64,000 nucleotides of DNA, taken from positions 1,243,208 to 1,307,207 of the forward strand of contig NC_082619.1 of assembly GCF_030936135.1 (NCBI RefSeq), given 5' to 3'. Made by a program: the position numbers and the translations under genes. Position 1 is the stretch's first letter. The number at the start of each line of letters is the position of its first letter. Origin of the DNA: Gavia stellata. Taxonomy: Eukaryota; Chordata; Aves; Gaviiformes; Gaviidae. The notes under the pieces are model-generated. The model searched no databases, was not told the origin of the DNA, and was given only the letters and a program-made list of their open reading frames with translations. Positions 1-56,400 of this stretch are shown piece after piece.

Positions 1-388
1 TACTGAGGGAGCACTCGATCCTCTCGTCCAGATCGTTGATAAATATATTAAACATGACCGGCCCCGGTACCGAACCCTGGGGAACACCGCTTGTGACCGG
101 CCGCCAGCCGGATTTAGCTCCATTCACCCCAACCCTTTGGGCCCGGCCAGCCAGCCAGTTTTTCACCCAGCAAAGAGTGTGCCCGTCCAAGCCATAAGCA
201 GTCGGTTTCTCTAGGAGAATGCTGTGGGAGTCGGTGTCAAAGGCTTTACTAAAGTCTAGGGAGACTATATCCACAGCCTTTCCCTCGTCCGCTAAGCGGG
301 TCACCTTGTCATAGAAGGAGATCAGGTTAGGCAAGCAGGACCTGCCTTTCATAAACCCATGCTGACTGGGCCTGATTTAGCCGTGTCC
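1..388 (-). mobile_element. CR1 non-LTR retrotransposon fragment (reverse transcriptase part)
   Basis: Read on the minus strand, this segment encodes a continuous reverse-transcriptase stretch typical of CR1. It shows HGFMKGRSC, then LDFSKAFD, then [20 protein letters not shown] (positions about 250-160), then [11 protein letters not shown] and [17 protein letters not shown] near position 1. These are the palm-domain blocks just before the catalytic YADD block, which would lie beyond the left edge. Similarity stops at about 380-390, so the copy is 5'-truncated as usual for CR1, and its 3' end is outside the window. It lies in sequence upstream of the first CEP164 coding exon, probably the first intron. 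It is an inactive relic: the piece is partial and PQGSVLGP has become PQGSVPGP. Confidence 0.93.
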
Positions 389-592: not shown

Positions 593-674
593 ATGGCAGG
601 AGCTATGGTGCGCATTGGTGACCAGCTCATCCTGGAAGAAGATTACGATGAGACGTACATTCCCAGCGAGCAAG
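593..674 (+). CDS. CEP164: CEP164 coding exon 1 (start codon)
   Basis: Starts [20 protein letters not shown] and ends in the first base of a Glu codon at a gtaacc donor (phase 1). This is the conserved N-terminus just before the WW module. The exon probably begins at 587 after the acceptor gtgcag, so only six bases of 5' UTR are visible. Confidence 0.94.
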
Positions 675-3600
675 GTAACCCATGCCAGTCCTCCCAGAAA
701 CTGCGATAAGGGATTCAAGCATGCAAGTCGCTTCTAGGTGTCTTAAGAAAACGGGAATCGGGGAGAGCAAGGGTGGGGAGGGTAGAATAAAAGGGATTTC
801 ATAGAAGGCAGAGCTGAAAAAGTAGCTTTTTGGCTGCAAAGATAAACGCCGTTTTTCAGTCTGTCCCCCTGCTTTACCAGCCTGGTAGGACGTGCTGACT
901 GACAGAGGGCCACGTCAGCAGCTTTGAGCAGCTTCGTTTCGGGATCGGGATTTCCCAGTGTGCCCATTGCTTTAGCTGAGGAGGTTGGCTTTGTTGTGTA
1001 GTACCTGGCGTAGACCGTCTCCTCAGGTTCCTCTTCTGTTTTCCTAGAAATCCAGGACTTTGCACGGGAGATCGGGATTGACCCTGAGAAGGAGCCAGAG
1101 CTGATATGGCTGGCCAGGGAAGGCATCGTGGCCCCGTTACCACCCGAGTGGAAGCCCTGGTGAGAGCTCTGTCAGCAGCTGTCTCGTTAGATTCCTGGCC
1201 TCTCCTGCCCTTCCCCTGCTGCGTGCTGCCCACCTAGCTGGCAGAGCAGGGTACCGGCTGGCGAGGAGGGTGATGCACAACAGATGTGCTGCTGTGGATG
1301 GGGACGTACGGTTTTCACTTCTCGTGCCGTTTTTTGCCATGCAGCCAGGATATCACTGGTGATATCTACTACTTCAACTTTGCTAACGGCCAGTCCACGT
1401 GGGACCACCCCTGCGATGATCGCTACAGAGAGCTTGTCATTCAGGAGCGAGAGAAGCTGCTGGCACGTGGCAGCTTGAAAAAGAAAGAGAAGAAGAAGAA
1501 GAAAGAAAAGAAAGAGAAGAAAGACAAGAAGGAGAAGCAGTCACTGAAGCGACCCACCGTGAGTAGGCTCTGCTGCTTGCAGTGCTTCTGGGGAGGAGCA
1601 AGAGGGCTGGGCGGAGGATGAACGAGTGGCTGTGAATTAGAGGGTGATCCTCTGCTGTTGCCGCTTTGGGATCGGAACAGCGATCCCCTGACAAAGGATC
1701 CTGTCCAGCAGGGTTGTGAATTTGATGGAAGTCCAACAGAAGCGGGGTCACAAACCCACAAAAGGCAGGAAGTCTTGGTTTGGAAGGACACACCTGGAGT
1801 GGGGGTGCCACAGGCCTGTGATGCCATTGCTGGGAAGGGTATGGCAGCAGCCAAGGATGCTGGTGCTATTCTTAGCAGCAGATATTTGGCGTGCTGGAAA
1901 GATTTCCTTCCTTGGAGAGGACAACAAATGGTGTTTATGCAGTGTCCGTGCATGTGTTGCTATGATATACAGGCGGTGAATGCAGGTTTAGACGTCTGAG
2001 GTTCGTCTGCTTTGCTGTTGGTATCTGCAAGCATAACCAAATTCCCTTTATATCCCAAGTGACAGCAAATCGTCCCTACCTTCCATTTGCCGGTAATGAG
2101 ATAAATCTCCAAGGGGAAAGATGGTGCCTTGTGTTGTCGCTCAAGGCATAGACCTCTTCAACTCAGAAAGCCTCAAGCCTTCAATTTGAGCATTTTCTTT
2201 TATATGTATACATGTAACTTCAAATGCTCAAAAACTTGCACACCTATTTACAAATTTTGTATTAAATAAGTATGTATCTCTACTTTAGATAGATAAAGGC
2301 ATATATAGTGATATGTGATACATTTTAGTTATTTGCTAATATTTATCTACTTAGGAAATGCAGCCAGGGATTCTTCCTTCAACATCCTTTTGTCAAATGC
2401 CCTCTGCCATTCTGCCCCCCGGGCAGGAGAGTCCCGAGCCAGATCCAGATAGCCAGATTAGAGACAAAGGCAAAGGGAGACCGTCAGCCATAAGTGACTC
2501 AAGGAGACTGTTTGCAGGCACGTGGCCAAACAAACTGCATCCCCTGCTTGTTTCAAAGCTCAGCAGACCATGCCAGACCTTACCTGATGTGGAGAAAATT
2601 TTAGAAAAGGGCCCCTCTTTTAGCAGCTTTGATGTAGACATCCACCAGGACCAAGACGCACCTTTAGAAATGCGAGAAAAGCTTTGTCTTGACTCCTCTG
2701 ACTCACAGTCTGACGATGTAGAGGTTATGCCACCAGTGCGACCTTTGTGTGCGTCAAAGAAATCCTATTCACGAGACTTCAAGAATGTCAGAACTCTACT
2801 AGAGGCCCTCGAAGACAAGATCCTACTCTCTGAGGATGAAGAGCTGAAAGAAAAGTGGAAGATGAAAGACCTGATGGGTGAGTCTGATCATCACTTCTCA
2901 GTCAGAGAGAAATCTACAGGACTGCATGGACACGTGGAAAGAAGTCCAGGTATACTGCAAGCCAGAGAAAAAGAAAGCTTTTACTGGAGGAACAATGACG
3001 TGACTCTTTTTGATGCCAGTCCCACAGATGGCTGGAGTTTGCAGGAGACAGTTGGTGTTCCATACGCTCAAGAAGAGCTGAGATCCTACAGCCAGGTATC
3101 TGAGAGTAGAAGTAAGAGAAGAGTTCGAGACGAGGCTTTGGGTCAAGCCATCGGTCTATACAAGAGTAACACGACCATCAGCAGACCTGAGAGAAAAGGT
3201 TTAAAGCAGGTGGAGCCGAGGGAAGTAGGAGCAGATATAGAAGTAGACAGTAGCGATGGTATGCTAGAGAGCCACTCCACAATCTCTCAAGACATCACAG
3301 ATATATTACCCTGCTTCCAAGGAGTAGATGCAAAGAGAGGAATCAATGTGGATCTTCATTCTGCAGTGCACCCTACATCAAAACGTGTTTTTTCATCAGC
3401 TGAAGATGGCTGGAGAAACAACGAAGGAAGTGGTTTGATATCAGAGCACGATAGCAGCGATTCAGCCAGTTCTCCTAACGATAGTGCACCCTGGGTGCTG
3501 GGAGTGAACCATTGCTTCTCTCCACGCCACAAGTCTGGGAGACAGAAGGATGTGCGCTCCATTGGAGAAGAGCCTCTGCTGCCTCATCCCCTCCTGGGGT

Positions 3601-42533: not shown

Positions 42534-42587
42534 ATGCTGGCGACCCTGATGACAGCACTGTTTTTTGTGGTGAGAGCATTTGGACAG
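42534..42587 (+). CDS. IQ-motif gene exon 1 (start codon)
   Basis: Eighteen codons, MLATLMTALFFVVRAFGQ, from an ATG in the context tccagccATGc to a strong donor cag-gtgagt (phase 0). A second in-frame donor, gtg-gtgaga, lies 18 bases upstream. The preceding 130 bases are GC-rich without a TATA box and could be 5' UTR or promoter. An upstream alternative first exon cannot be excluded. Confidence 0.6.
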
Positions 42588-45500
42588 GTGAGTCTGGGCT
42601 GGCCTGGCAGCAGGTAGGAGTTAACGTTTTCCGTTTTATTTCTGGAGGCGTGTGGGTTGTTATCTTACCAGAGAAGGGGGGGAGCAGTGGGGAATGTGTG
42701 CCATCAAGCCCTGCAGTGGTGCGCAGCCCAGCGCGTCCGCTCATCCTCGGCAAGTTGGCTTGGGAGCGCATTTGAGTTTTTGTCACCGTAGCATTAGCAG
42801 GCGTATCGGCAGCTTTGCAGAGGGCAGCTCCCCGTCGTGCCCGTGCACGCGGGAAGCCGGGGCAGGTGCTTGGGCTTCCCAGGCTGTCCTCTAACCTGCT
42901 GCAAATCCTTTCCACGTCCAGCTCGGGACCAGCCTGTTCCATGAGGAGCCCCTGCCGTACCTGGTGTACCAGCCCCTGCCCTGGCAGATCCAGTGCGTGA
43001 CCCAGAGCCGCCGCACCAGCCGGGACAGCGAGGTGAGGGCCGGTTTCTTTGCGTGCAGCCAGCCGAGGCAGCTGGCAGGGGGAGAGGGCAGCGCCTGGTG
43101 CGGAGAGAGCAGCACGCATGTTTGTTAACCAGACAGGCTGCTCGCAGCAGAGGGCTTGGGCAAGGGAGAGAGGTTCGTCTCCTTCCCGTGAAAGACAGAA
43201 AACAGGGTAATGCCAGGAGGCAGGATGAGCTGAAAAACGTAGGAAAGGTGTTTGTAGACAAACTCGAGCTTCTTTGTAGGAATGAAAATACCCCCTAGCA
43301 GACCTGACAGCCCAGGTGCTGCGGTACCGCGGTAGGTGCTGGAGCTGAGGAAATGAACCCGGCAAGTCTGGTTCCACGCTGACTTGAAACGCAGACCTAG
43401 TGAGGCTGGTGTGCCGATGTACATCCTAAGACGCTACCGGCCCAGTGCGTTGTTGCACAGATCCGGTTTTTTGATACAAACCTCTTTTCTGCTTCTCCTT
43501 GGAGGGCTTCTCACAAATGCGAGTTAATCGATCAGTGCTCTGTAGTGCTCTTTAAGGGAACAACAGTAAGGATTTGCAAGTTTCCCAAAGGGAATGGAGA
43601 GTGGAAAGCTGGGAGCGGCTAGCCGTGTTCTCACCGCCTCTGCCTGATAGGTAACTAACTCTGTTGTACTTTTGTTCTCTACCCATCTAGAGAGGCAGGA
43701 GCTCGCGGCACAACAGCATCTATGCGATTTCTGGAGAGAAAGGTGAGTGCGGAGCAGGCAGGGAGACAGCCCTGCCCAAGTAGTGGGGGAAACCCGTGGT
43801 TGTGACCATGGGACGCCACAGAAGAGCAGGCACTGCAGCACCTGCACCCTTCTTGGCCTCTCCTGCCAAAAAATCTGTCTCTGTGACATTATGAAGGGGC
43901 ATTTGGGAAGTCAGCTCTGCAGGAGGGAAGCCCTCTCGGAAAGCTTTCTCTCCAGCCCAGCCTACGGCTTGCTGGCTGCGCTGTTTTTTCAGTCAGCTCT
44001 CCCCCCGCGGAGGTGCCCTTCTTGCCACCCCCGGGAGGGCATGTGGGTACAGACAGGGTGGCGAGATGCTTGTCAAAGTACCAGCAAGCGAAGGCCCTGG
44101 TGTTGCATGGCTTAATATACCACAGCACACGTGTGTGTGTGTGTGCAAATCCCTGCCTCTCCCTGCCCACGAAACCTGCCCCACTTGGGTCAGGCTGTCC
44201 CCTAGAACAGCCCCCCTTGCTCTTCTCCTTGGCCTGGCAAAACCACCCCGAACTTGCCCCTCTTTCCTCCTCCTTGCTCTTATCTCTAAGGCTCTGCCCC
44301 CTCTGCTGAAGTCAAGCGCTCAGCAAAGAGGATTTGAGCACTTCTATTCTCAGTGCAGCTCGGGCGGCAATCGGATAAAGGCAGGTGACGTGATGCTCCG
44401 GCAGCGCGGGGCTGGGCCGGGTGCTGCCGACTGCCTGCCGTGGCGGAGTGGGCAGGGTGCTGAGCCCTGACGTTCCTCCTCGACGGATCAGTAGCTCTGG
44501 CCAGCCTGGTCCCTGCTCGGGGGGTTTCACTGCCCGGTGAGCGGGTGAAGGTCCCCGGGCTGCCTGGGCTGCCAGCGGCACTCCTGTGGGTGCGGGGGGG
44601 GCGTTATTGACGGCCTGGCCGCGGCCGAGCTCCTTCAGCAGGTGTATTTCTGGCGGAGCTGTCGGCAGCCCGTGCGGCCGAGGGCCCGTTCCTGCAAACG
44701 TACAGCGGTACGTGCCGCGGTGGCTCCCCAGCCGCTGGTGTTTGGTTTGTGCAGCGGGCAGGATTTATGGCTGGCGATGTATCTTGTTAAGCAGGGCAGG
44801 AGGGAGCCAATTCCCAGTGTGGACCCTTTTTATGTATCTTTTTACTTTGCCATTTCTTTTAGGTTGTGAATAAAAATGGGTTCAGGTGACAGTGGTGAGT
44901 TTATACAGCAGCATCTGGCACCAGGATTCCTGATCGCTGCTCGGGGGGTGCTTAGCAGTGACACGCTCGCTTAAAGGAGCGCTGCTGAGTGGCTTTGATT
45001 CAGTTCCCGTTGCATTTCACAATACTTCCCTCATGCCACATTAAGCGTGGGGTGGGGAGGGCTCCCATTTGTCAGCATGAGAGCTTTATTGCTGTACGGT
45101 GCCGGGCTTTTTTTCTAATCTTATTTGTGTGTGTGAAAGTAAGTGAGTATCATACTTGGTGATTAAACGTGGGGAAGCTGAGGTCTTTGGGGAGTAAAGC
45201 TGAGTAAATAGAGGGCTTAGGGCTGCCAGGGAGGCTGGGCTTTTCCATGCCTCCCGTTCCCTGCTCCATCTGCCCCTGCCCTGGAGACGCGCCCCGTGAG
45301 CTGGTGGAGTTGCGGTTTCGTGCTGTGGGCTCCGCAGCCTCTTTCAGCTCCGTGACGGAGCGAAGCCCTCCCGTCCGTGGGTGCTCTGTGGGGAGCCTGA
45401 CCCCACGGCGGGGGACGCCAGAGCCCTGCCCTGCTCGGCGGAGGCTGTTCAGGGCCACCGGCACCGCCTGTGCTGGCTGTGATGCTTGGTCATCATCCTA

Positions 45501-45623
45501 GGCAACGAGACCCCCAACGCCAGCAGCGAGAGCAAGGTCTTCAGCGACCCTTCCGAGAAGGCGGCCCTCACCATCCAGACCCACTTCAGGAGATACCAGC
45601 AGCAGAAGCAGGAGAAGAAGTAG
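42534..45623 (+). CDS. Small IQ-motif protein of the PCP4 type (gene-level, 4 exons, 112 residues)
   Basis: Four exons (42534-42587, 42922-43032, 43691-43742, 45502-45623) with clean splice sites join in phase to 339 nt. The C-terminus reads SDPSEKAALTIQTHFRRYQQ then QKQEKK. It shares the acidic lead, the [ED]-[KR]-A-A step and the IQxxFR-basic-aromatic-Q core of PCP4 (IQSQFRKFQ) and PCP4L1 (IQGKFRRFQ), beyond a generic IQ motif. PCP4 proteins bind calmodulin and speed its calcium exchange (known). The N-terminus (MLATLMTALFFVV) is hydrophobic, unlike PCP4, followed by a Pro/aromatic segment (EEPLPYLVYQPLPWQ) and basic Ser/Thr sites RRTS and RHNS that suit PKA- or CaMK-type kinases. It lies 3' of and convergent with DSCAML1, exactly as PCP4 lies with DSCAM. 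I infer a PCP4 ohnolog; I cannot name the gene. First exon least certain. Confidence 0.8.
42922..43032 (+). CDS. IQ-motif gene exon 2
   Basis: Thirty-seven codons, LGTSLFHEEPLPYLVYQPLP then WQIQCVTQSRRTSRDSE. Acceptor ctttccacgtccag, donor gag-gtgagg, phase 0-0. The antisense strand is also open by chance. Confidence 0.82.
43691..43742 (+). CDS. IQ-motif gene exon 3
   Basis: Encodes RGRSSRHNSIYAISGEK plus one base. Acceptor tctacccatctag, donor aaag-gtgagt, phase 0 in and 1 out. Confidence 0.82.
43743..45501 (+). other. IQ-motif gene intron 3
   Basis: A 1.76-kb intron. It contains an AATAAA at about 44870 that could serve a truncated transcript, and a short tg repeat near 44130. No extra exon is supported. 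Confidence 0.5.
45502..45623 (+). CDS. IQ-motif gene exon 4 (IQ motif and stop)
   Basis: Encodes (G)NETPNASSESKVFSDPSEKA, then ALTIQTHFRRYQQQKQEKK and stop TAG at 45621-45623. Acceptor catcatcctag, phase 1 in. This is the exon with the PCP4-like calmodulin-binding motif. Confidence 0.88.
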
Positions 45624-47490
45624 ACGCGTCGGCCACCCGCGCCCTGCTCGGCCCCCCCTTTTTGTCTGTTCTGTACCACAGAGAGATGCGCGGCCGTGGT
45701 GGCTGTGAGCCTGCTCCCTGATGATATGTAGCTTCTGCTGCGCCCGCAGCTGTAGACGCTCTGCCGTTGGTGTTGGTTGCTGCTCGGAGTGAGCTCTCTT
45801 TCCTGTCAGTCCTTCCCCAGACAGCATTGCCGTGTGGGCCAGGGTACCACCGGCGAGGGGCTGCCCGATGGGACCTCGGCACCCAGGGAGCGAGGCAGCA
45901 CTGACAAGCCTTGCCTCGGCGGCAGCACCCAGTGCTGCGTGCTGGCTGGCCGTGGGGCTGCAGCAAGCGGGAGCAGGGCGGTGTGGGTGGGAGTGGGGCC
46001 CTGCGCAGCTGATGGCGATGTGGCTCGCTGGTGGCTGCCCAGCTGGGGCTCGCTTTGCCCAGCAACAGCCCTCCCCTGTGCCTCCATCTCCATTCTGCCT
46101 CTGGAGCTGGCCTGGAACAACCGCCTTTGTCCCCTGCTCCGGGCGGCCGGCTCGCAGAGCTGCGGAGCGCGGTGCCCGGGAGCCGTTCTGCAGCGGGACG
46201 TCACCGAGGGGGTGTGCTGCAGGCAGCGCAGGGAGCAGGAGCTGAGCCGCATGCTGACCGTGAGCTGATCTTGCTTTTCTTGGGGAGAACTGCTTGGGGG
46301 GCCCTGGTTTCCGAGCGGGGATGGGGCGGGACCCTGTCTCCTGTGGCTGCACGCGCCGAGGCTGAGCCTACTCTGTCACCCAGCCACCCTGTCCTGCTCT
46401 TTGGGTCCAGCAGAGCTGAGCAGAGACCTGCTCCCGGGCTGGCAGGGACAGGACCCCCAGGTTACCTTGGGTTTTAGCACCCGTTTTCGAGCACTGGCTT
46501 TTGGAGGGGGCAGAGCTGTTAGTTGAGAAAGAGGGAATGTGAAAGCACCGAGCTCCGGGCCGGCAGAGAAAGGGGAAGGGGCTGGCTGTGGGCAGGGTGG
46601 GTGGGAGAAGGTGGCGAGGTGGGGCCGTGTGCTGCGGCATGGTGGGTGCTCTGTGGGAAGGAGCAGGGCATGGAGGAGCTGCTGGCCGTCGCCAGCGCTG
46701 CTCTGACAGCCCGAGTGTGTTCTCAGCTGCCGCTTTGCTGGGTCCAGTGCTGTTTTTTCTGTGCAGAGCTGCTGAGCAATGCCCCAACTGCCCTTCCTCT
46801 CCTCCCCGGCTGCAAACAATGCCCTCAGCCCTTCTTAGGAGGGCTCCATCCCCAGGTGCCCTGGCTTATCCTCCGCTTGCAGGTGCTAGCCTTTGGTGTC
46901 TGGCTTCTGCCTGTGCTCACTTGCTGCTTGTGGCTGGCAGCCAGCGCTGCCCGCAGCGCTCCTCTGAAGGTGCATGGGGAGAGGGGGTGGTGATGGTTTG
47001 GTCTGTCGCTCCGCGGTGCCGTGAGCTGCCAGGTTCTGCCTGAGCTGGCTGATGCCTGGAGGGGTGTGTTGCGTGGAGCACGGTGTCGGGGGCTCGGCTG
47101 GAGTCCTGAGCGAGGCAGCTGGTAAAGCAGACTGAAAACCAGCGCCGCTCTCTGGACTTCTGAGCTTGGTGGGTTTTTTGCCTGTTTCCCACTGATGGCA
47201 GAGTTTGGCTAGCGTGCCTTTAACGGGCTGTCTCCCTTCAACTCCCACTCGGTTACTGTGTGTGGCAATGTGGGGAGAGCCTGCTGCCGTGGGGAAGGGC
47301 AGTGGGCTTGCTGGGAGCAGGGGGGTGCTGGGGTCTCATGGTTGAGTGCTGGAACTCTGGGCTGTCGTAACAACCTGTGCAAAGCCAAGGATGGTAACTG
47401 CTGGGGAAGGGAAGGTGGAGAATTCTTGCTAAGATGTAGAAGGCAATCTGTGCTAGCCGATTACAATAAAGACGTATTAATCGGTGTTAA
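45624..47490 (+). other. Probable 3' UTR of the IQ-motif gene
   Basis: GC-rich sequence after the stop with no polyadenylation signal until AATAAA at 47465-47470, which is followed by T- and GT-rich sequence. This gives a 3' UTR of about 1.87 kb. Long open frames on both strands here are GC artefacts. Confidence 0.5.
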
Positions 47491-50464: not shown

Positions 50465-53400
50465 CCCAGGTATAAACATAACCTTTATTGCACACAGCGC
50501 TGGGTTTTTTTTCATAGAAAAAGGTATTAACACATAAGCATTTGCAAATTGAAGCAACTCCCGTTGTTTTCAGAACAGTAAAATAGCATGCAATGTCCTT
50601 GAGACGTTCCTTTTTAAAACCACCGACAAGATCAGGGGGGGAAAAAAAAAGTCGCTGAGTCTTTCCTTGTGCCCCTTTCAAAATGATGTGAAATATATAT
50701 ATATGTTTACATATATATTATATTTTTAAATCTGTAACATCAAATTCTTTGTGCCCTGGTTTCTTTTTCTGTTCGGAGAAGAAGAAAATAGCTTCATTTA
50801 TACAAAAGAGTTCGTTATGTACAAGTTTGTTAATTAAATAGAAATGGCGCGGGAAATGAGCAGCGTCCGTGGTGGGCAGTCTCCGCTGGGCACCCTACAC
50901 CAGCGTGTAGGACTTGGAGTAGGCGCCGGCCCCCTGTTTTTGAGCCCTGCCTACACCCGACGTGCTCATTTCTAGGAGCGAGTCCCTGGAGCCCCCCACT
51001 TTGGAGTGCGCCGGCACCCGCGCCTCGGCGGCGGCAGCGGCAGCAGCGGCGGGGGGCTCAGCGGCGGGGGGCACGGGGGCGGTGCTGGCAGCGGGCGCGG
51101 CGGCGGGGCCCGTCGCGCCGGGCATGGGGAGAGTCCTTTGAGGTAAGGTGGTTGCGGCGGAGGCCGGGGGAGGCAGGCCCAGGGGCTTGCTGCCGGGCTC
51201 CAGCGTCATGTGCCGGGCTTGCGCGTGGTACGCCCGGGCGAGGTTGCGGATGGAGGCTTCCCGCGGCGGCACCACCGGGCAGGGCTCGTGGGCGTCGGGC
51301 TTGCGGAAGAAGGCCTCCGACTTGACGTAGAGCGGGAGGTTGCAGTAGTCGCCTGCGAGGGGAAGCAGAGGCGGGTGAGGCTGCGGCGTGAGCCCTGCCC
51401 GCCCCGGGGACCCCGCCCGGCCCCTCCCTCTATACAAGTCAGTGTAAGAGGACATAAATAATACAATCATCCTCTAAGTTGTCATACTCTATGCAACACA
51501 CCCTACTGAGCAGGTCAACCTATAGTAGTCAATAATAGTATTATGTAACATGTCCTATAAAGTGGTATATAATGTGTAATATTAAACGTGCGCTGTAATA
51601 AAACCATCTTCTACAACACTGTAAAGATGTTCTTTCTTTCTTTAATGTACAACATGCCACTTCTTATGTTTTCAGGGTACTACAATATAGTATGTATATG
51701 TAATATGTTGTTTATTCGTGTGCGGTAGAAGGCAGTAGCATCTATGGTGGCATGTATGGCATTCTGTTCTGGAATGGTGTGCTGTAAATACTTGTACTAC
51801 GCTCGTAACATCTCTCCTAGTATACACTACCCCTCGCTGGTACGGCTTATGCTATACCAAACAGTATACTGTCCTAATGTAAATAGCATACGTGCTACAA
51901 TAAGCAATATATTACACTATGTTGTGTTATATAGCATTATCTATAACTAACTGCAGTGCCTTAATTTAAGGATTTATGTGTATGTATACGTAAGACACTG
52001 CATTATTATATTGCCTTATGTATGTGATAGAGCACAAATATAACAAAATAACACTATTGCTTTTAATTGTATATGTTTTGTAATATGTTCTGTAAACTAC
52101 ACGTTTATAACACTATAACAACATACTATATTCTGTCTTATGATATACACGACACTATTTAAAATATATCATGAAAGTATATTGTCTTAATTGGAGAAGA
52201 AGAGTGCATTATACTGTGCATTACATAATATGCTCAGTATATAAAGTAACTATCGATTATCAAACATGTATTTTTAAAACGGGTTTTCTATGTATGTGCT
52301 GTATTTCAAGTTACTACATAGATTGGCTAGGTATGTAGTATTTCCTAGAAATACTTTTATTTTTCCCTACTGTAGCATTATCTGGCTACGCAGCAGAGTC
52401 TGCGGGGTCGCTAAATGTGTGCACCGTAATAGCCCTGTTAGCTGGAAGACACGTCTCGACGGGGTGTGTTGTGCTGCGTGTGCCAGAAAGGTTGTGAAAG
52501 GAAGGGGAAGGAATACTGAGGAATACGAAGGAGGGGGAAGGAATAGAAATGAAGAGGGAAGAAGAGGGGAGAGATGGTAAGAAATGAATAGAAAAGGAGG
52601 AGGGAAGGAATGAAACGTGAAGAAATAGTAACAAAAGGAAAGAAGAGGGAAGACAAGGAAAGAAAGGAAATGAGAGGAGGAAAGTGGAGAGAAGAAAACA
52701 AATGGGAGGAGTGGAGAGGAGCAAAAGGAAGCGAAGAAGACCAAAGCAATATGAAGAGAAGTGAAGAAATGGGAGGAGAGAAAAAGAAAGGAGCAAAGAA
52801 ATGGGAGGAGAGTGAAGAGAAGAGAGTGAAGAGAGGAGAAAAAATGGAACTGTAAGTTAGATTTTGGGTAGGTTCTGGGCGGATCTCTTCCAGGTTGTGG
52901 TGGGATCTAGAGAAGATCTCCTCAACTGGCGGTTCCACGAGAAAGCCTTACAAAAGCTACCCCGGGACCGCACGCAACCAAACCAGCTGCCACTGGAAGA
53001 TCGGTCCTGTGGAGGCTGGACGAGAGCTTCTCCCACCTCCCCTCCCGCCCTTCCCGGGAACCGTCTCTCTCGGTACCTTTACCGTGTTGTGCAACGAGGG
53101 GACAATACAAAACCAAGCAGGCAGCGTACAACTGCAGACAAAGCGGGCGTGTACGTACTCTTGCTGGCACGGTGTGGGATGGGTACGGCCACGCTCTTGC
53201 CCCGCTCGCTGTCCTGGGGTTTGGGCGGGGAAGCTGTGAAGCGACAGATGCCAGGCTCGGAGGGGGTGCTCATGGAGGTCATGCTGTCCGCGTTATCGGT
53301 GGTGCCGGTGGTCATCTGGTCTGAGGAGCTGTCGGAGATGAAGCACTCTGTGATCTCAAACTTGGCGTGTTGCAGCTGCTCCTCCAGCTTCGCGTGCTCG

Positions 53401-56400
53401 TAGGCGCGTGCCAGCTCCTCGTAGGTGGATGAGGCGCTCTCCGTCGACACCATGCTGTTCCGCCCCTTGTCTGCGGGGGAGAGGACGCATCACGTACCCG
53501 GGAATTCTCCCCGGCCTGGGAATGCCCAGGCTGTCCCCGCTGAGCTACACCCGGCCACCTCCAGCTGTCCAATTTATGATACTAGTTGTAACCTTTACTA
53601 GACATTGGAGCCCACAGTTTAACGCTGCCGCTTTCAGGCAAAAGCAAGTGGCTCTTGCAGCAGAAGTCACGGTTCCTCGATCCCACCGACTAACAGTAAA
53701 CTCTACTGCAGTCACCCCGAACTCACGGTTTGGGGTCACCGCCAATGAAGCCATGAACCCCGAACCAACAGATCCCTGCTGGCCACAGCCCCCGGAGCCC
53801 AGGGAGGCCCCGGGGCTGCCGTCGGCGCTGCAGCACGCGCATACCTGTGTCCTGAGAGAGGCTGGCGCTGTAGCTGTCGCTCTCGGTGACCGTGATGCCG
53901 TGCTGGGAGCCCACTGTCCTCCAGTCAGAGGTGAGGGTCCGTGCCGGGGTGGACGCCTGGCACTTGGTGAGGGTCCACTGGCTGGAGTACCGGTTGCGGG
54001 TGCTGTGTGCAGACTTCACGCTCTTCCTTGACACGGGGTCTAAGGCACAAAGGCGACAGAGTCACAGCAGGTGACTCCCAGGCACAGACAGGACACTGGC
54101 CCATCTCCCGGGAGCGCTCCCCGCTCCTACTGCCTTACCAACAGTTGCTTTTAGGCACGGACGGTGCCTATGGGGCAGAAGGAGCACCCCTCTGGAAGGG
54201 GACGTGCAGGGACTGGCCACAGTGTCCCTGCGCTGCCCACATCTGCCTTGTGGCTGTGTCTGCAAGCACCCCGCACTGCTCCCGGCAAACCCACCCCAGC
54301 CACTTACTGGTGCCGGGGCGGATGTCCGACATGTCGATGAGGGGCCCTGTGTTCTGGATCAGAGCGGGGTGATGCAGCGAGACGCCCGTGCAGAAGCTCT
54401 GGGGGTTCACCGCCTGACTGAACTCCGTGTCGGTCACCGGGATCGTGGCTTTGTCGTCGCCTGCGGGAAGAAGCTGGAGCTCAGACCTCTTTATCTAGCC
54501 AGGCATCCGCTGTAGGTGCCTGATAGCCCACACTCAGCACACCCATGGGATCCCCCGGCTTCCCCGCTGCAGGGAGCCCCGCCGGTGCTCCGGGGCACGC
54601 GGGGATGGCAGATTTGCCTGGCTGGTCTCCAGGCAGGGCAGTGGCACAACAGTAACCCCCACCGAGGCAGAGCCCAGCCGAGGCGATTGCTGCGGTGCAA
54701 GGGGAGCCCCTGCGCGCTGCTCTGCCGTAGGGTAGGAAGGGGACAGCCTGGGGACCCGGCGGGCTGGACGGGATGCTGGCCCACGTCCCTTCCTCGCGCA
54801 GGCGCTGCTGTGGCCAGGGTTGGGGCCCCACGCCGCAGGGGGAGCGCGGTGCTCACCCAGCTGTTTGATGCCTTCCTTGTCCTCGATGAGGAGCTGCACC
54901 CGAGGGATGTCGATGTGCAGTCGGGGGCCCTGCGGAGGACCCTTCACCGGCGTGTCAAAGCTGCGGTTATTCTTGCTGCGAGGTAAGAGGGGACGCAGAC
55001 CCGGCCGTTACTGGACAGAGCCCCGGCGGCTCGAGCCTGGCAGGGGCTGGGGCTTGCCACCGGCCAGCCCACCCGGGGCTCAGCTCTCCCCTGGGGCAAG
55101 TGTCAGCGTGGGTGCCAGGACCCGCCTGCTGCACCCCTGCGGCAGGCAGGAGCGGCCAGAAGCACCGGGCTGAAACAGCCTCCCCTGGTCTGAGCCCAAG
55201 AAGGTCTGAACCCGGGCTTCAAAGTATCCAGGACTGCCCCCACCACCCAGCATTCCCCAGCCTGCCCACCCACCGCCAACCACCATGCTCACCTGATCAG
55301 CATTTCAGCCAAACTCTTGGCATCTGTGCAAGAGACACAAAAAACAAGAAGGTTTTTTTTTTTTTTAAAGAGGAGAGCCATTTAGGTCCAGGAAAGCACA
55401 GCTCTGCGGTCCAGCATGCTGTGCCTCTGAGCCCCACCTCGCAGCCTCTTCAGCCGCTTCTCCTTCCTCTTCTTGCGGATGATGAAGAGCAGGGCCACTC
55501 CCAGCGTGGCCAGGATCACGGGGCAGGCGATGGTGAAGAGCTTCTTCACGTCGTCCCCCTCCCCCTGGGCAGACTTGATGGGGGGGATGGTGCCTAGGGC
55601 AGAGCGCGGGCGGGTGGGCGGTCGGTGCTCCCGGGAGCCCCCCACCCCGGCGGTGCAGCCACTGCCCCAGCCCCCCACTCACTGCCGTCGTAGTCCAGCG
55701 TGGCGAACTGCGTGGTCTCGTTGCCGCAGCCGGCGCTGTTGCAGGCCTTCATGCGGAGCTCATACCACGTGGCCTCGCGCAGCTCCGTCAGGAAGACCTC
55801 GCTGGAGCTGTTGGTGCGGAGGCTCTGCCAGACCCAGTTGCCCTTGGGCCGGTACTCCAGGACGATGGCGGTGATGGGGCAGCCCCCGCTGCTCCAGCCC
55901 TGCAGGTTCAGCCTGGCGTGCGTGGAGTTGATGTGGGTGAAGAGGTGCTGGTCCTTGCTGAAGGAGGGCTCTGCGGGAGAGGAGCCATCAGGAGGGCTGC
56001 TGCGGAGAGGGGATGGCAGCGTCCCCCCGCAGGGCAGGGACACGGTGGGGCAGGCTCACCTCTGCCGTGGGTCTTGGCTTCAATGATCTCGCTGATGCGG
56101 CCGGCCCCCACGCTGTTCTTGGCCGCCAGCTTCACCTTGTACCAGGTGCCGCACTTGAGGCTCTCCAGCTTGAAGGAGCGCTCGGAGGAGCTGATGAACA
56201 CGTCCTTCCACTCCTCGCTGTTGTCCACCGAGTACTGGAGCACGAAGCCTGCGGGAGCAAGGACAGGGTCACCACCGGCACGCAGAGCCGGCCGGGGACC
56301 CTGCGCCTGCCTTGCGGACGTCCCGTGGCCAAGTCCACTGCAGCCTTGCAGTGCCAGGGCACCTGTTGCACACCGACTCCTGCCCAACTGCATGCACATG

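Follow-up and report, generated by a model that had tools for sequence, protein, structure and literature searches.

A four-exon gene beside DSCAML1 in Gavia stellata codes for a putative membrane-tethered relative of PCP4

Introduction

What is encoded between CEP164 and DSCAML1 in the genome of the bird Gavia stellata, and to which family does the product belong? The window considered here, i.e., the whole analyzed stretch of 64,000 nucleotides, had been proposed in the initial annotation to carry at this place a gene of four exons, joined in phase into 112 residues, with an IQ end of the PCP4 type and an N-terminus unlike that of PCP4. What is known of the calmodulin regulator PCP4 comes mainly from mammals, and PCP4L1 is a family member whose IQ motif binds calmodulin poorly. 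The joint explanation that we favor, and hold to be probable from sequence comparisons, is that the four-exon gene is a PCP4 paralogue, copied along with the ancestor of DSCAM and DSCAML1, which would code for a putative calmodulin binder tethered to a membrane and switched by phosphorylation.

Results

The gene model and its surroundings

The four exons, their in-phase joins and the 112-residue product hold to the base on the forward strand: the frame runs unbroken from the ATG at 42534 to the end of the stop codon at 45623, and all three introns (3/3) are of the gt...ag type, their splicing being predicted from the sequence (Table 1). The Pfam IQ model (PF00612) matches residues 91-110 of the product with 20.9 bits, marginally above the curated cut-off of 20.3. 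The place between CEP164 and DSCAML1 is borne out as well, by the CEP164 match upstream (E=3.5e-28) and by an Fn3 exon, situated further upstream in the downstream DSCAM/DSCAML gene, that matches PF25059 (E=8.3e-23). The stop of the latter gene at 50895 (-) and the end of the four-exon gene at 45623 (+) lie 5.3 kb apart, such that the two are arranged tail-to-tail.

By sequence matches alone, both neighbor genes, the one in the window and the one beside PCP4 (see below), are of the DSCAM/DSCAML type, without telling DSCAM from DSCAML1; the names used here for Gavia stellata rest on the human gene order, which we take to place CEP164 beside DSCAML1 and PCP4 beside DSCAM. Both DSCAM-type genes of the genome end in KSYTLV, which resembles a PDZ ligand (window 50895-50915 on the minus strand; C1 about 99383468-99383485 on the plus strand). 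A long low-complexity stretch with Ser/Phe/Leu-rich frames on the minus strand lies at about 52370-52950, within the DSCAML1 3' region, and at the start of the window (2-376, minus strand) an open frame resembles a fragment of a LINE reverse transcriptase, of the CR1 type by eye.

Table 1. Features of the window and of the PCP4 region in the same genome (positions without a contig name are those of the window)
Feature	Position	Strand	Remarks
CEP164, N-terminal part, start to WW-domain exon	593..1390	+	upstream neighbor; match to solved CEP164
Coding exon 1	42534..42587	+	54 nt, start phase 0; ATG and residues 1-18, hydrophobic N-terminus MLATLMTALFFVVRAFGQ
Coding exon 2	42922..43032	+	111 nt, start phase 0; residues 19-55, EEPLPYLVYQPLPWQ segment and RRTS site (residues 48-51)
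Coding exon 3	43691..43742	+	52 nt, enters in phase 0, leaves in phase 1; sequence poorly conserved
Coding exon 4	45502..45623	+	122 nt, start phase 1; variable linker, IQ motif (residues 91-110), stop codon
AATAAA, candidate polyadenylation signal	47465..47470	+	first such signal past the stop; position only
DSCAML1, 3' part, transmembrane exon to stop codon (...KSYTLV)	50895..55525	-	downstream neighbor; read by eye
PCP4	C1:99420417-99451912	-	separate gene, same genome
DSCAM-type exons	C1:99334801-99363585 (99334801, 99355713, 99363292)	+	same genome; stop near 99383485, KSYTLV end

Conservation along the product

Conservation is concentrated in exons 1 and 2 and in the IQ part of exon 4, and is much lower in exon 3 and the linker. 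The 18 residues of exon 1 are all shared with ibis and with tuatara (18/18 each) and 13/18 of them with the basking shark, while for exon 2 the corresponding values are 37/37, 31/37 and 20/37; the remaining parts are identical to the basking shark at 6/17 positions in exon 3, 9/18 in the linker and 11/18 in the IQ part. In an alignment of 24 sequences the bird models cross the boundary of exons 1 and 2 gap-free, and within exon 2 the records P0016 and P0020 are without three residues and teleosts carry one extra residue. Exon 3 seems shorter in teleosts, as read from models and isoforms. An insert in the linker between exons 3 and 4 distinguishes three teleost records from one another (P0043 of 136 residues, P0045 of 129 and P0066 of 115) and suggests alternative splicing there.

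Motifs were counted over 63 chosen models rather than over all relatives, namely the window product, the 57 members of a profile and five proteins from chondrichthyans; the 57 members had been chosen from 138 records, excluding fragments, models that were doubtful or retained introns, and many teleosts that resemble one another. A start of the form ML-x-[TS]-[LM]-[LM]-T is present in 61/63 models, and the kinase-type site R-[RK]-x-S in all 63/63. The pattern used for the IQ core missed 3/63 models, and core-based counts therefore have n=60; the IQ residues are kept in every one of these (60/60), and the Pfam IQ model is found at E<=0.1 in 53/57 profile members. The NaV1.5-type IQ model PF24609 also matches 12/57 profile members at this threshold.

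The strongest rival to a calmodulin-binding role takes up the other conserved part of the chain: the segment EEPLPYxVxQPLPWQ together with the N-terminus might be the working part, attaching to a partner in the membrane (a channel or an adhesion protein, for instance), and calmodulin binding might be weak or lost, with PCP4L1 as a cautionary case within the family. QPxPW occurs in 63/63 of the chosen models, and exons 1 and 2 are conserved as well as the IQ. Moreover, the place of S48 of PCP4 is taken by Thr in 43/60 models, which counts against calmodulin binding when set beside the reported finding that Q47N with S48T stops PEP-19 binding calmodulin (PMC5122967). However, the IQ core is itself conserved, in all 60 sequences that show the core pattern, and we regard partner binding as the main function of the protein as unlikely, if deserving of attention.

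The N-terminus and a proposed mechanism

That the N-terminus is unlike PCP4 is upheld by the two extra coding exons, with the hydrophobic start and QPxPW. The maximal hydropathy over 15 residues is 1.52-2.25 in 18/18 sequences measured, with moderate amphipathicity; the first charged residue is R14. The putative membrane tethering would fit this hydropathy profile, but a transmembrane helix is usually longer than this stretch, which counts against it. Since no basic residue stands before the hydrophobic stretch and an R or K stands at its end, we favor a cytosolic location for the C-terminus.

The hydrophobic start could also be read differently, with residues 1-18 cleaved off as the signal peptide of a product that is secreted or luminal, and with its IQ-like end serving some other use as a basic helix. 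In addition to the computed hydropathy, several UniRef records of relatives are named 'Secreted protein', apparently by automatic naming. Against this stand the very charge pattern noted above, with no positive residue ahead of the stretch and R or K directly behind it, and the IQ match over the cut-off in the window product. We consider secretion rather improbable, and less likely than partner binding through QPxPW. The 'secreted-side' variant, which had been suggested along with the membrane-tethered one, is unlikely for the further reason that the cytosol is where one expects a conserved motif of the calmodulin type.

Returning to the membrane-tethered calmodulin binder that we prefer, we propose that the N-terminal hydrophobic stretch would lodge in the membrane, leaving the remaining chain cytosolic, and that the C-terminal IQ helix may hold calmodulin there. 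Between this anchor and the IQ lies the R-[RK]-x-S site, which might allow PKA- or CaMK-type kinases to alter the hold on the membrane or the binding of a partner. Such a protein would act more as a local calmodulin store, in the manner of GAP-43, than as a calcium-exchange tuner like PCP4; we propose a store because the acidic element of PCP4, on which PEP-19 depends for tuning the binding of calcium by calmodulin (PMC5122967), is weak in these proteins.

Kinship with PCP4

The PCP4-type nature of the IQ end stood up to three comparisons, namely a profile match, intron phases and gene arrangement. The window product alone reaches PCP4 in the PDB only at E=0.59. With the 57-member profile the match to PCP4 (2n77) covers profile positions 67-112 and has E=3.9e-6, the next IQ protein being IQSEC1 at 0.052. 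Matches to the mitochondrial ribosomal protein uL18m rank between the two in the same search; these are weak, with E values from 0.017 in the N-terminal half, and we do not accept them as homology. A local alignment of residues 56-112 with bird PCP4 scores 56, higher than any of 2000 shuffles, which reach 48 at most. Similarity to PCP4 does not rise above the shuffles outside the IQ core: the score of the linker is reached by 1340/2000 of them. For this reason, and with SGE absent from the fish models examined, the 'SGE' before the last intron was discarded as evidence of kinship with PCP4.

In the genome of Gavia stellata exon 2 of PCP4 has 52 nt, with phase 0 at its start and phase 1 at its end, and is followed by the terminal IQ exon. 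The last two exons of the four-exon gene have the same succession of intron phases, 0 and then 1, and the 52-nt exon is common to both genes. A search for a hidden exon near PCP4 resembling exon 2 of the four-exon gene gave a best match of E=0.33 in C1:99450001-99510000, which was taken as none. PCP4 and a DSCAM-type gene lie tail-to-tail on C1, about 37 kb apart, such that this one genome has two sets of paralogous neighbors in the same orientation, PCP4 with the DSCAM-type gene and the four-exon gene with DSCAML1. The four-exon gene is not simply PCP4 or PCP4L1, both of which lie elsewhere in the genome. A weak match to the IQ of exon 4 is seen at C6:18953171-18953251 on the minus strand (E=4.4), where AAITIQSHYRGYKERK lies in an open frame.

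Taken together, the profile match, the exon structure and the place of the gene indicate a duplication of the PCP4-DSCAM pair. The simplest reading, we infer, is that the four-exon gene is a third paralogue of the PCP4 family that was copied with the ancestor of DSCAM and DSCAML1, probably in the early vertebrate genome duplications (2R); the occurrence of relatives in cartilaginous and bony fishes alike fits such an age, and BACE1 and BACE2 are a candidate further flanking pair for a 2R duplication of PCP4. The alternative that the gene is no PCP4 paralogue, and that an unrelated gene with a similar IQ exon came to lie in the DSCAML1 neighborhood by coincidence, can draw on the lack of PCP4 similarity in the linker, on the commonness of phases 0 and 1, and on exon 3 seeming shorter in the teleost models, as read from isoforms. 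It is nevertheless very improbable in our estimation, given that the PCP4-specific profile match, the structure of the last exons, and the neighbors with their orientation all concur.

One element of the proposed kinship had to be given up. An 'acidic lead' had been listed as part of a common signature; among the 11 residues that end at the first core residue the mean number of acidic ones is 2.55 (60/63 models measured), where PCP4 has 5 and bird PCP4L1 has 4, and the acidic element that precedes the IQ in PCP4 (its residues 30-40) falls short in the new family. As this element is weak, we claim kinship with the PCP4 family and not PCP4's calcium tuning. The product also departs from the family's usual build of 62-68 cytosolic residues with no membrane segment in having 112 residues and a hydrophobic N-terminus.

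Distribution of the relatives

A comparison of the product with 5.8 billion proteins gave 55 matches at E<=1; a source name is attached to 37 of these rows and missing from 18. Many of these homologues in other genomes are full-length, so chance open frames are excluded and an annotation artefact, for which nothing was found to speak, has a negligible probability; the four-exon stretch is, judged by this conservation, a real and old gene. Full-length relatives recovered with the single sequence come from ibis (93% identity), ostrich (86%), seriema, turtles, tuatara, lizards, newt, frog, sturgeon and bichir. A 24-member profile has 262 matches at E<=10, the best 120 of which, with organism names absent in 6, add gar, bowfin, many teleosts and the basking shark. 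With the shark protein as the query there are seven matches, itself counted, and every one is a shark or stingray protein.

The family is hence spread over birds, turtles, tuatara, lizards, amphibians, bony fishes (gar, bowfin, sturgeon, bichir, teleosts) and cartilaginous fishes (sharks, a ray), and its members are nearly all unnamed. An avian orphan gene can be set aside given the relatives in sharks, a ray and bony fishes. The initial annotation was sound as to the gene, its IQ kinship, its place and its N-terminus; it found no support in the acidic lead, and its scope was too narrow, with relatives that are not confined to birds and reach the sharks.

Mammals are not represented among the organism-named rows of the three protein searches, one of these being the best 120 of 262 matches. 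This absence from protein match lists suggests a possible loss in mammals.

Among the matches listed, the relatives are nearly all recorded as 'uncharacterized', 'hypothetical', 'unnamed' or 'Secreted protein', with one toothfish entry as PCP4; several fish and shark records bear numbered isoforms, which hints at transcript support. In the literature, going by titles and the openings of abstracts, with several result lists covered in part, the gene was not found described. It is thus present in databases, yet no description was found in the literature surveyed, and it is best filed within the PCP4 family.

Discussion

Put in its widest form, the claim would be that jawed vertebrates possess a third, membrane-tethered calmodulin regulator of the PCP4 family, with a fixed kinase switch, which was born together with DSCAML1, was lost in mammals and hence lies beyond the reach of work in mouse and human. 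We advance this tentatively, as a serious possibility suggested by the comparisons made here. If true, a paralogue extending from sharks to birds, in which an N-terminus of the membrane type is combined with a fixed kinase-type site, would add a branch of calcium signaling that mammals may lack. The four-exon gene is a possible marker for the DSCAM/DSCAML1 duplication, and it is amenable to study in chick, Xenopus or teleosts.

Comparison with known systems

Among known proteins, PCP4 (PEP-19, Purkinje cell protein 4) shares with the product the IQ core and the FR[KR][FY]Q that follows the IQ in both, and at the level of the gene a short exon with phases 0 and 1, a terminal IQ exon after it, and the tail-to-tail arrangement with a DSCAM-type gene. 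It differs in its length of 62 residues, in being without the hydrophobic and QPxPW exons, and in having the acidic element required for tuning calcium binding (PMC5122967).

PCP4L1 shares the IQ core EKAALAIQGKFRRFQKRK, and its last exon likewise begins in phase 1, by inspection; it differs in its glutamate-rich lead and in its location on contig C33, and no such N-terminal exons were seen in the stretch read.

Acylation provides the anchor of GAP-43, which has its PKC site within the IQ and is regarded as a local calmodulin store. The likeness of the four-exon gene product to GAP-43 and neurogranin concerns the proposed working only, that of a small IQ protein which would store calmodulin near the membrane under the control of a kinase, and no membership in that group is claimed.
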